NCBI RefSeq assembly: GCF_003002815.1
Contig: NZ_PVTF01000001.1
Span: 1,178,001 to 1,242,000, forward strand
Direction: 5' to 3'
DNA length: 64,000 nt
Source of the DNA: Umezawaea tangerina
GTDB lineage: Bacteria; Actinomycetota; Actinomycetes; Mycobacteriales; Pseudonocardiaceae
Of the stretch, positions 1,895 to 49,555 are shown piece by piece. A model generated the notes under the pieces. The model was given only the letters and a program-made list of their open reading frames with translations. It made no database searches and was not told the origin of the DNA. A program made the translations under genes and the position numbers. Position 1 is the stretch's first letter; the number at the start of each line of letters is the position of its first letter.

Positions 1895-1904
1895 CGCTCC
1901 AACC

Positions 1905-2310
1905 CGATGCCCAGCCGAAGCGCAGCCAGGTGCAGTGTCCGAAGCGAAACCAGGATGCCCTGTCCGACGCAGTCGGATGCCGTTCAGCAAGCCCGCTGCC
2001 AAACCCAGAGCCAGGCCTCATCGGCGCCAGCCGATGCCTTGTCCGCCGCGAAGCGCGGATGCCTTGTCCGACGGCGAAGCCGAGGATGCCTGGTCCGACG
2101 CGCGGCGAGGATGCCCTGTCGGACGGAGTCCGATGCTTGAGTCGAGCGCAGCTCGATGCTGGCGAAGCCAGACTTCCCCTCTGCCCCCGATCCACAGCGC
2201 CCTCCTGCTTGATCTTGCTTGTCAAGACAGCCCTATCGTCTTGACAAGCAAGATCAAGCATTGAGACAATCGCGCGCCGGGGGCCGGGCTTCCCCAGTTG
2301 GTGGGCACAA
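1905..2310 (+). repeat. Convergent-junction repeat element, copy 1 (tandem units plus 23 bp hairpin)
   Basis: This fills the 458 bp gap between two convergent genes; I see no convincing gene here. Left part: units built on GGATGCCYTGTCCGACGG at 1953, 2057, 2084 and 2109, spaced 25-27 bp in the last three. Right part: a perfect 23 bp inverted repeat, 2206-2228 against 2238-2260, whose loop-proximal 10 bases are TTGTCAAGAC / GTCTTGACAA, with a 9 nt loop (2229-2237). Flanks GGGGAAGTCTGGCTTCGCCA and GATTGTCTCAATG (both on the reverse strand) recur in copy 2. The hairpin could end transcription from both sides, but no T-run follows it. Confidence 0.85.
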
Positions 2311-17590: not shown

Positions 17591-17689
17591 GGGTTTTGTT
17601 TTGGGTTTTTTGTCTGTGGTGAAGTTTGGTCTTCTCGCCTGTGGCGGAGTCTTGTTTCGGAGGCCCTACCTTTGGTGAAGTCCGGCTCC

Positions 17690-17995
17690 CGGCCGTCCCA
17701 CCCCGCGAGTCTGGCTCTCGACCCTCCCACCCCTGGGAAGCCCGGCCCCCGGCGCGCGATTGTCTCAATGCCCGATCTTCGTTGTCAAGACGATAAAGCC
17801 ATCTTGACAACGAAGATCGGGCAGGAGGGCGCTGTGGATCGGGGGCAGAGGGGAAGTCTGGCTTCGCCAGCATCGGCTTCGCCGACTCAAGCATCCTCGC
17901 TGCGCGTCGGACAAGGCCCCAGGCGCTTCGCGCCGGATGCGCGCTGGCGGGCTGCGCCCAATGTGTGTGGGGTGCTCGTTGTGCGTTGGGCCTAG
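17690..17995 (-). repeat. Convergent-junction repeat element, copy 2 (inverted relative to copies 1 and 3)
   Basis: It lies in the 454 bp gap between the 3' ends of the chelatase gene and the alkyltransferase-like gene; no gene is supported there. Perfect 22 bp inverted repeat, 17769-17790 against 17802-17823, core TTGTCAAGA / TCTTGACAA. The left flank has GATTGTCTCAATG and the right flank GGAGGGCGCTGTGGATCGGG, then GGGGAAGTCTGGCTTCGCCA, all matching copy 1 in reverse. Further right, about 95 bp (17893-17990) closely matches the reverse complement of 48723-48820 in copy 3. Read in its own direction the loop is similar to those of copies 1 and 3. Confidence 0.85.
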
Positions 17996-18005
17996 AGGCG
18001 TCCCG

Positions 18006-18335
18006 TTAGAAGAGGGTGGGGGTGTTGTCTTCTTCTTGGGGTTTTACTGCTTCTTCCCAGCGGTAGGTGTGGAGGTTGATTTTGCCGTTGGTGGAGGGGA
18101 CGCCTTCTTCTTCGAGCAGGCGTAGTTGTTCTTCGGCGATGTGGGGGGCGCAGGTGCCGTTGGCGCGGAGGACTCGGTGCCAGGGGAGGGAGGTGTGGTC
18201 GGTGTTGAGGAGGTGGCCGACCAGTTTTGCGGTGGGGGCGTGGGAGAGGTCGGCTATGTCGCCGTAGGTGGCTACGCGGCCGGCGGGGATTTTTCTGATG
18301 GTGTCGCGGATCATCTCGTGCAGCAGCTCGTCCAC
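18006..18335 (-). CDS. Alkyltransferase-like (ATL) DNA repair protein
   Basis: 109 aa from GTG 18335 (VDELLHEMIRDTIRKIPAGRV...); longer upstream reading is low-complexity and unlikely. MGMT-like DNA-binding domain: GRVATYGDIADLSH, TAKLVGHLLN, then LPWHRVLRANG. The catalytic PCHR of O6-alkylguanine transferases is PWHR here, with Trp replacing Cys, so it cannot accept alkyl groups. ATL proteins bind alkylated guanine and hand it to nucleotide excision repair. Next to adnAB this is the order I recall for mycobacterial Rv3204. Confidence 0.88.
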   Translation of the reverse strand: MDELLHEMIRDTIRKIPAGRVATYGDIADLSHAPTAKLVGHLLNTDHTSLPWHRVLRANGTCAPHIAEEQLRLLEEEGVPSTNGKINLHTYRWEEAVKPQEEDNTPTLF

Positions 18336-18357
18336 GGGACAAGTCTGGCAGTTGGAA

Positions 18358-18402
18358 CTCCGGTGACCGGGCGGGGTCGGGGTCACTGCCCGGCCACCGG
18401 AG
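18358..18402. promoter_or_regulatory. Hairpin between divergent ATL and adnA genes
   Basis: CTCCGGTGACCGGGC (18358-18372) pairs with GCCCGGCCACCGGAG (18388-18402), 14 of 15 bases, over a 15 nt loop. Both genes point away from it, so it is more likely a shared operator or 5' leader structure than a terminator. The rest of the 281 bp gap shows no clear -35/-10 pair. Confidence 0.5.
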
Positions 18403-18616
18403 GAGACGGGGTGTGTGGGATCAAAATGGCCTAGACCACTGTGGGTGTCAAGATCTTCGGGGGTTTCTGTCGTCGCTGGTCCGGTGGTTGTGGGGTGTTC
18501 GGGCTTTCTCCGTCCTTTTCCTTCTTCTTTGTCACCGGGAGTGAGGTGGGGGCGACGCTGGGCCACCCGGCGGGTGCTCCCTCGTCTTGTCGGTGCAACG
18601 TGGTTCCATCACACCC

Positions 18617-48721: not shown

Positions 48722-48990
48722 CCGAAGCGCAGCGAGCACGCCAACACCACGTTGGGCGCAGCCCGCCAGCGCCCATCCGGCGCGGAGCGCCTGGGGCCTT
48801 GTCCGCCGCGCAGCAAGGATGCCCTGTCCGACGGCGAAGCCAAGGATGCCCTGTCCGTCGCGGAGCGTCGGATGCCCTCCCCACCCACACTCCCCCCACG
48901 CACCCCGACGAGAAAGCCCCTCTATGCCCACCGCCGCTTGTCAAGACAGCTCCACCGTCTTGACAAGCGGCGGTGGGCATAGAACACTAG
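48722..48990 (+). repeat. Convergent-junction repeat element, copy 3
   Basis: It fills most of the 309 bp gap between the 3' ends of the ROK gene and the short gene at 49007; no gene is supported. Left part (48723-48820) matches copy 2 in reverse. Then GGATGCCCTGTCCGACGG at 48817 and near-copies at 48844 and 48870. Then a 27 bp perfect inverted repeat, 48921-48947 against 48957-48983, core TTGTCAAGAC / GTCTTGACAA, loop 48948-48956. The outer stem (ATGCCCACCGCCGC) differs from copies 1 and 2 but still pairs fully. Confidence 0.85.
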
Positions 48991-49006
48991 GCGACCGGGG
49001 TGCCCC

Positions 49007-49555
49007 TCACCCCCCAAACCCAGCCACCCTCCACACCTCCCCCTCCTCCAAAACGCCCCCCGGCACCCCCACCCCGAACGCCAACGCCACCCCCCGAACC
49101 ACAACCCTCCTCACCACCTCATCCTCCAACTCCCCAGGCCACTCCCACTCCGGCCCCGCCAACACCACCTTCAACACCCGATCCGCCACCCCGATCACCT
49201 CGGCGAACCTCTCCTCCGGGATCCCCTCGTACCTCCGCACCTGCGCCAACCACCGCGACCTCCACGCCATCTGCCCCGCGGGCTCCTCGACGGCCCTCCC
49301 GTGCACGATCCGCAGCACCTCCACCAGCGACGTCCCCTCCTGCCGCAGGTGCTCGTCCAGCCGCACGAGCGACACCTGCCGCCGCGCCGCCACCTCCACC
49401 GGTTTGTGCAGCACCACGCTCAACGCCGACGCGGTCTCCTCGTCGGCCACCCGCATGCTGAACGCCGACTTCCCGGCTTCCATGGTCTCCACCGCGAGCC
49501 GCCACAGCTCCGCCAGTCCGGGCCCCCTGTACACCGCCCGCAACTCCTGATCCAC
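49007..49555 (-). CDS. Short protein, candidate N-terminal remnant of JetD (DUF3323/TIGR02679-like)
   Basis: 182 aa from GTG 49555, which has a perfect AGGAGGT six bases upstream; a longer reading from 49651 lacks one. Residues 1-175 (GPGLAELWRLAVETMEAGKS, SLVRLDEHLRQEGTSLVEVL, WLAQVRRYEG, VVRRVVVRGVALAFG) resemble, by eye, the N-terminal helical half of TIGR02679/JetD proteins. The C-terminal Toprim-like DUF2399 nuclease half is absent; the frame ends 17 bp from repeat copy 3. Same strand as jetABC, downstream of jetC. It could instead be an unrelated short gene. Similarity is my recollection, not a search. Confidence 0.5.
   Translation of the reverse strand: MDQELRAVYRGPGLAELWRLAVETMEAGKSAFSMRVADEETASALSVVLHKPVEVAARRQVSLVRLDEHLRQEGTSLVEVLRIVHGRAVEEPAGQMAWRSRWLAQVRRYEGIPEERFAEVIGVADRVLKVVLAGPEWEWPGELEDEVVRRVVVRGVALAFGVGVPGGVLEEGEVWRVAGFGG

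Follow-up and report, generated by a model that had tools for sequence, protein, structure and literature searches.

Sequence analyses revealed that three long perfect hairpins in a 64-kb stretch of the Umezawaea tangerina genome (the window) are copies of a dispersed family of intergenic palindromic repeats, the two arms of which evolve as mirror images of each other. That the family is large and real, and that its mirrored evolution is real too, are well supported. The explanation of the whole that we prefer, tentatively and at somewhat less than even confidence, is that the repeat acts as folded DNA, in which one arm is copied from the other within the hairpin and which carries a promoter-like unit.

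Anatomy and extent of the repeat family

Recomputation returned exactly the coordinates and arm lengths that a first-pass annotation had given for three perfect inverted repeats: copy 1 (2206..2260, minus strand; 23-bp arms, 9-nt loop), copy 2 (17769-17823, plus strand; 22-bp arms, 11-nt loop) and copy 3 (48921..48983, minus strand; 27-bp arms, 9-nt loop). They are the longest perfect inverted repeats in the window with loops of 3-20, the runner-up having 14 bp, and 14 bp was also the longest found in 30 order-1 Markov sequences of window length. The repeats hold a core shared by all three copies, as described in that annotation; copies 1 and 3 carry TTGTCAAGAC on both arms and copy 2 carries TTGTCAAGAC/TTGTCAAGAT. 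With up to one mismatch, TTGTCAAGAC has six matches in the window, all inside the hairpins (shuffle mean 1.05; 0 of 100 shuffles reached 6). A DNA-uptake-type word was considered and rejected, since TTGTCAAGAC (up to one mismatch) is absent from the window outside the hairpins and so is not an abundant single word there. Copies 1 and 3 have the opposite orientation to copy 2, and when they are read on the minus strand the three loops are indeed alike, as had been claimed. The flanks of the hairpins are conserved too, and the element is therefore longer than the hairpin. Covariance model R1 (119 positions, made from alignment A4 of 55 copies, the rows of which were preselected by flank words) placed the element bodies at 2178..2294 (minus strand, 118 bits) for copy 1, at 17735..17851 (plus strand, 116.8 bits) for copy 2 and at 48896..49012 (minus strand, 100.7 bits) for copy 3, which has another flank class.

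The element body of about 110-120 bp is ordered as follows: an outer stem (CCCCG paired with CGGGG), a one-sided A[TG]TGT motif, a variable arm of about 13-17 nt, the core TTGTCAAG[AG]C, a loop of 9-13 nt (e.g., GATAAAGCT or GGGAAAGAT), the mirror core, and the mirror arm, followed by GGCGCT or GGCT and then by a GATCGGGG-like end. At least two flank classes occur among the copies of the own genome. On the plus strand of copy 2, the outer stem consists of CCCCCG (17746..17751) and CGGGGG (17840..17845), which are paired in the fold. The conserved left motif ATTGTCTC is located at 17759..17766, and its reverse complement gives the -10-like GACAAT. The inverted-repeat search placed the left arm, with 13 variable nucleotides and the start of the core, at 17769..17790 and the right arm at 17802..17823. 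The left core TTGTCAAGAC (17782..17791) contains TTGACA on the minus strand, the loop CGATAAAGCCA occupies 17791..17801, and the core-word search found the mirror core TTGTCAAGAT at 17801..17810 on the minus strand. Directly left of copy 2, at 17679-17733, there are two 26-nt direct repeats with a spacing of 29 that are 85% alike, and similar units are located left of another family copy, L005.

In 60 copies selected on core and loop alone, without the A[TG]TGT motif, this motif was found within 50 nt left of the core in 60 of 60 and in mirrored form on the right side in 0 of 60. All 55 rows of A4, which were found by the core pattern, have the core in mirrored form, and its fixity is partly ascertained because copies were sought in this way. 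The ninth base pair of the core switches in both halves between species.

The first-pass annotation had proposed a repeat family, and this was confirmed, with more copies in the host and its relatives. A search of the own genome (G000, 10.68 Mb) gave 174 perfect-core copies, with none for the reversed-pattern control. The strict AC-core pattern was found in 3 of 60 genomes including the own one, namely the own genome, the congener G002 (40 copies) and G031 (1 copy). The single match in G031 was set aside as a family member, its flanks being unrelated and its arms 10 bp; this lone TTGTCAAGAC..GTCTTGACAA palindrome of another genus (L061, 1501-1530) is perhaps an ordinary operator. The copies read from G001 (Umezawaea endophytica DSM 103496, also a congener) and from other genera have TTGTCAAGGC or variants in place of the AC core. 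Forward/reverse matches of the pattern TGTCAAGRC..CCTTGACA, in which symmetric copies count on both strands, numbered 77/76 in G001, 93/92 in G002, 44/49 in G102, 35/31 in G088 and 21/13 in G198. At E up to 0.001, R1 matched 30 of 200 genomes of the bacterial family that includes Umezawaea and Amycolatopsis, spread over 9 of 46 genera, with match numbers per genome that are to be read as at least so many. In an order-wide scan with R1, 14 of 298 genomes were positive (E up to 1e-5), and all 14 belong to the same bacterial family. The named genomes among the matches listed (80 of 120 stretches) include many Amycolatopsis species, Umezawaea endophytica and an Actinokineospora.

The copies read are part of the total, 110 of 174 in the own genome, 58 in G002 and 18 in G001. 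Together with 101 copies from named genomes (104 had enough flank, from 120 covariance-model stretches) and 11 others, they give a set of 298 oriented copies, which was oriented partly by A[TG]TGT itself and excludes four copies of ambiguous orientation (1 named, 2 from G001, 1 other) and copies with less than 60 nt of flank. The element lies only a few bases from the start of the draft contigs G185:C69, C127 and G011:C5, which suggests that assemblies break at these hairpins. A second repeated intergenic block, around TGTCGGACCC..GTACCTTG, was seen upstream of L195, L068, L198, L188, L154 and L160.

Mirrored change of the arms

Covariation in A4 was far above that in shuffled alignments. The consensus structure pairs 97.2% of the cells, against 80.8% in shuffles, and 273 cells were changed on both sides, compared with a shuffled mean of 78.4 (0 of 500 shuffles reached 273) and with 37-84 in controls with slid partners. 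The number of further pair types was not unusual (43 vs 40.1 in shuffles, reached by 52 of 500). Cells changed on one side were absent from 9 of the 12 variable arm pairs and totaled four in the other three, and 14 of the 29 unpaired variable-arm cells were at the outermost pair. A short helix outside the arms (columns 32-35/97-100) had 49 one-side-changed cells, mostly U-G.

The copies of the own genome revealed the same pattern. All 13 arm pairs were Watson-Crick in 101 of the 110 copies read, with 54 distinct arms, and among 1430 arm cells there were 3 G-U, 6 A-C and 5 other mismatches. When, as a control, the left arm of one own-genome copy was paired with the right arm of another, 5.4% were perfect (maximum 10.0%). 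Perfect arms were also found in 39 of 58 copies from G002, 16 of 18 from G001, 80 of 101 named copies and 7 of 11 others. Thus, the claim that the arms co-vary without losing their pairing was borne out. A single mirrored step separates 38 of the 54 distinct perfect arms of the own genome from another arm, and only six copies have exactly one arm mismatch. This suggests that the one-sided intermediate is short-lived in the own genome.

Orthologous sites gave a second view of these changes. We compared 104 copies of the own genome with 57 from G002, taking as orthologous a pair in which both flanking regions are shared, and found 24 such pairs, with a mean flank identity of 89.9% and the same orientation in 23 of 24. 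Between the two members of a pair, the median number of differing left-arm positions is 6 of 13. The 155 arm differences comprise 138 on both arms and 17 on one; thus, neither of the outcomes that the first-pass annotation had named as speaking against its claim, no further copies or arms mutating independently, was found. Cores, loops or entire flank classes are often switched at these sites, and in the pair L196/L149 the core and loop are identical and nine mirrored arm positions are changed. The pattern is concerted evolution with rewriting of the arms. Gene conversion of resident copies fits it better than fresh insertion, because orientation is kept while arms, cores and flank class change.

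A few copies suggest the direction in which arms are corrected. Each of the two arms of the chimera L047 is found as a perfect arm in other copies, and L008 resembles a version of this chimera that was half-corrected, next to the core only. G002 is less clean than the own genome: 19 of its 58 copies have at least one mismatch within the 13 arm positions. Nine of its copies (L063, L067, L149, L153, L155, L159, L161, L165 and L170) form a sub-lineage with similar mismatches beside the core. Arm correction is therefore not universal or fast, as imperfect copies of G002 share mismatches next to the core.

Wobble pairs bear on whether RNA is selected. They are scarce in the named copies as well (5 G-U, 8 A-C); G002 has 4 G-U and 24 A-C, an excess that partly comes from one shared sub-lineage and could mean that wobble is tolerated in the RNA of the other strand. 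Selection on the RNA of one strand would be expected to leave wobble pairs on that strand, and there are few on either in the own genome and the named copies. A search of Rfam 15 at the gathering score gave no match in the 64-kb window. A known RNA family was rejected, as only microRNA precursors below threshold were found (best mir-232), which we took as generic perfect hairpins. Hence the structured RNA suggested at first is without direct support, having no Rfam match and few G-U cells in its arms. Scarce wobble does not prove a DNA-level cause, because selection on both strands also removes wobble.

Hairpin-templated copying of DNA is, as best we can infer, the likely cause of the mirrored arms. 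The arms would stay alike mainly because one serves as the template for the other within the hairpin, in a template switch primed by the core and loop, and gene conversion would carry arm types from copy to copy. Changes mirrored in the two arms with few intermediates, as expected from template switching, were found at the orthologous sites, in the own genome and less cleanly in G002. Most of the data agree with template switching; quick correction is at odds with the shared mismatches of the G002 sub-lineage. An inverted loop was sought as a sign of intermolecular switching, and there was one candidate (L277) in the 298 oriented copies; two further G002 copies, unclassified for loop direction by the script, were forward by eye. 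For this reason, only intrastrand switching fits. Template switching in DNA is described as able to make and mend perfect stems and to produce mirrored multi-base changes with loops kept (PMC8794818, PMC8604942), and the quasipalindrome homogenization presented there resembles our case in its mirrored multi-base changes, perfect stems and retained loop. The cases in these papers are presented as RNA genes or single coding loci, whereas here a dispersed family offers many parallel cases. How the two sides of a stem come to change jointly has been puzzling; PMC8794818 offers template switching as an answer, and its authors call the evidence for stem maintenance circumstantial.

The first-pass annotation had read the paired changes as maintenance of the structure or of arm identity. 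In its interpretation, the repeat family, the co-varying and still complementary arms, the alike loops and the further copies hold, but paired changes need not mean that the structure is selected, since template switching can make mirrored changes too.

Genomic place and other readings

None of 256 copies (92 from the own genome, 57 from G002, 13 from G001 and 94 named) was inside an ORF called by a simple ORF caller. The copies favor convergent gene pairs. In the own genome, 49 of the 87 placed copies were in such pairs, compared with 7 of 43 other pairs of the window (p=1.2e-5), a background from the simple ORF caller, which misses the gene at 18006-18566 and so counts window copy 2 as tandem. 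The proportions were 26 of 62 placed named copies vs 67 of 487 other pairs (p=5.4e-7) and 26 of 52 placed copies in G002. Copies at locus edges were left unplaced in these counts (5 of 92 in G000, 5 of 57 in G002, 32 of 94 named and 11 of 13 in G001). All three window copies sit between convergent ORFs; copy 2 has on its left a gene of the CbiX family (PF01903; 16892..17551, plus strand) and on its right a convergent gene with a 6-O-methylguanine DNA methyltransferase DNA-binding domain (PF01035; 18006..18566, minus strand). Orientation in tandem contexts is inconsistent, with same/opposite counts of 12/23 in G000, 13/11 in G002 and 12/17 in the named copies.

This location would suit a bidirectional transcription terminator or insulator between convergent genes, in which the RNA hairpins of both strands are selected and double changes arise by compensatory selection. 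The inconsistent orientation and the strong predicted folds on both strands of copy 2 agree with it, and selection on two strands would also exclude G-U. However, no T-run follows either arm of copy 2 in the sequence, and the hairpin is therefore not a canonical intrinsic terminator; the silence of a terminator scan on copy 2 weighs little, as its loop limit of 8 excludes the 11-nt loop. The invariant core, the one-sided motif and the fixed loop direction are left unexplained by termination, 38 of the 87 placed own-genome copies lie outside convergent ORF pairs, and a safe landing place would yield the same location bias. Thus, of the bidirectional terminator put forward in the first-pass annotation, the preference for convergent pairs stands and a T-run after the hairpin is missing. 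We regard this explanation as possible though unlikely.

That the repeat is a passive MITE-like mobile palindrome, which has no host function, spreads with the help of an enzyme, is tolerated between convergent genes and has arms kept alike only by template switching, also appears possible though unlikely. It fits the copy numbers (174 in G000; 40 with the AC core and 93 with the CC pattern in G002; 77 in G001), the draft contigs that start or end at an element, and the grading of arms into each other by single mirrored steps. It also fits the empty sites: neither G001 nor G002 has the core word where the window has copies 1 and 2, and the copy 3 site in G001 is 96 bp without the core word; in G002, that site has a copy whose core is GC and whose arms are imperfect. 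The intergenic DNA around the empty sites is too diverged to align for exact insertion ends, and no insertion boundary or target duplication is definable. The orientation kept at 23 of 24 orthologous sites despite changed arms, cores or flank class counts against this reading. The IS200/RAYT-type Y1 domain (PF01797) was found in 0 of 12 element-rich genomes, 2 of 12 others and 5 of 14 control genomes, and mobilization by IS200/RAYT was rejected because this domain, the only one searched, is absent from 12 of 12 element-rich genomes. The non-autonomous mobile palindrome of the first-pass annotation is partly supported, by presence and absence between species, and opposed by the missing PF01797. 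A double-stranded operator-like site, where a dimeric protein would bind TTGTCAAG[AG]C-N9-GYCTTGACAA as ordinary dyad DNA, would account for the mirrored core of A4 (its rows found by the core pattern) and for the ninth pair changing in both halves, but it does not require the palindromic outer 13 nt or the one-sided motif, and a location downstream of genes is unusual for operators, so that we consider it very improbable.

Among known repeats, ERIC is an enterobacterial intergenic palindrome of about 127 bp, the mover of which is unknown. The present family has many dispersed intergenic copies and coreless sites in relatives, as MITE/ERIC-like repeats do; ERIC differs, by description, in lineage and sequence, and we know of no report of hypervariable yet mirrored arms in it. 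REP/BIME and REPIN repeats (GTAG- and CGTC-tagged) are alike in being high-copy intergenic palindromes and hairpin mosaics, as outlined in PMC3733652, which places REPs mostly between unidirectional and convergent ORFs. The same source describes REPs as tagged units of 20-40 bp, with GTAG families tied to RAYT transposases. In contrast, the window hairpins span 55-63 nt with perfect stems of 22-27 bp in a body of 117 nt, and neither the 20-40 bp unit nor, in the 12 element-rich genomes, the dedicated Y1 transposase of GTAG/RAYT-type REPs was found. This family is a variant of intergenic palindromic repeats of which no earlier description was found, at the level of titles and abstracts of open-licence PMC papers.

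Promoter-like layout of the folded strand

A consensus scan of 1.6 kb revealed one promoter-like site, TTGACA-18-GACAAT on the minus strand of copy 2 (17788-17759; shuffled mean 0.0). In the family, the fixed letters on one strand are TTGACA, a spacer of 17-19 nt that contains the arm, and NACANT. The spacing of 17-19 nt was found in 59 of the 60 copies selected blind to the motif, and was 20 nt in the remaining one. In the 298 copies, which are of common descent and were oriented partly by the same motif, the distance between TTGACA and NACANT was 15-22 nt in 280, of which 263 had 17-19 nt; the spacer was 20 nt in 15, and NACANT was missing in 18. By set, 17-19 nt was found in 107 of 110 copies of the own genome, 55 of 58 of G002, 13 of 18 of G001, 83 of 101 named and 5 of 11 others. 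The -10-like NACANT fits TATAAT only partly, as the first T is absent.

In the fold predicted for this strand with DNA energy parameters, TTGACA and the first 13 bases of the spacer are part of a duplex. In 279 of 280 copies, bases 2-6 of NACANT lie in an internal loop and are mostly unpaired (mean above 0.5). The predicted fold thus resembles single-strand promoters, with a stem-loop of one strand that presents -35- and -10-like boxes as far apart as in a promoter. We hypothesize that the element has a promoter-like function, in which TTGACA from the core stem, a duplex spacer of 17-19 nt from the variable arm and NACANT from the unpaired internal loop would form a hairpin promoter working on single-stranded DNA. 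Such a layout would explain the invariance of the core and motif, and also an arm that may have any letters provided that it is duplex.

Two of the three members of the genus, G000 and G002, also have a tandem array of mini-hairpins on the right side of the element. The mean number of right-side hairpins per 400 nt was 4.87 in G000 (n=110), 3.47 in G002 (58), 0.00 in G001 (18) and 0.01 in named copies (82), against 0.00-0.06 for the left side or the reverse orientation; for the 11 copies from other genomes it was 0.27 on each side. The 110 arrays of the own genome contain 3-19 hairpins (median 6), with 48 distinct sequences among 717 hairpins preselected for TNC loops. Spacing is most commonly 24-26 bp, with a linker like GGACARGGCATC. 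Without loop preselection, 396 of 498 perfect triloop hairpins (stem of at least 5) have TNC loops and two have GNA. TNC loops on the array strand mean GNA loops on the strand that carries the promoter-like layout, and GNA triloops are exceptionally stable in DNA. When arrays of G002 were picked by array similarity, the core was upstream in 13 of 13. In the window, the array of copy 2 is at 17857..17960 on the plus strand, with hairpins at 17858, 17873 and 17922 and with GGGCTGCGCCC. Those of copies 1 and 3, with extents set by eye, are on the minus strand at 1903..2171 (hairpins at 2159 and 2142; matches in G002) and at 48725..48879 (matches in G002 to 48756-48879).

Frpo-type single-strand promoters are described as folding so that -35 and -10 boxes are rebuilt (PMC9849209, PMC11541004). 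Single-strand promoters and origins, which include Frpo of the F plasmid, ssi, and the sso of rolling-circle plasmids and ICEBs1, are presented as strand-specific stem-loops that offer -35/-10-like boxes to RNA polymerase on one strand (PMC9849209, PMC11541004, PMC4595007, PMC10085688). The likeness of our family to them lies in sequence layout and predicted fold; unlike them, it is chromosomal, has tens to more than 100 copies per genome, and has hypervariable mirrored arms and a NACANT box. That these repeats are chromosomal promoters of the folded strand, or single-strand origins, at tens to more than 100 copies per genome and with arms rewritten within the hairpin, is a doubtful proposition at present.

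The family offers many parallel stems, with the same core, similar loops and flanks, differing mirrored arms, orthologous sites, chimeras and half-corrected copies, so that the rate, direction and strand of arm copying are measurable in genomes and in culture. It also cautions against taking covariation by itself as proof that an RNA is selected. If folded-strand promotion is true, the family would be a DNA element independent of sequence and constrained in length and duplex, used when its strand becomes single-stranded in replication stress, repair or DNA uptake, and its -10-like box would be open on the same strand where the mini-hairpins expose GNA triloops. If the promoter-like layout is real, single-strand promoters would extend from mobile elements to a large chromosomal family.
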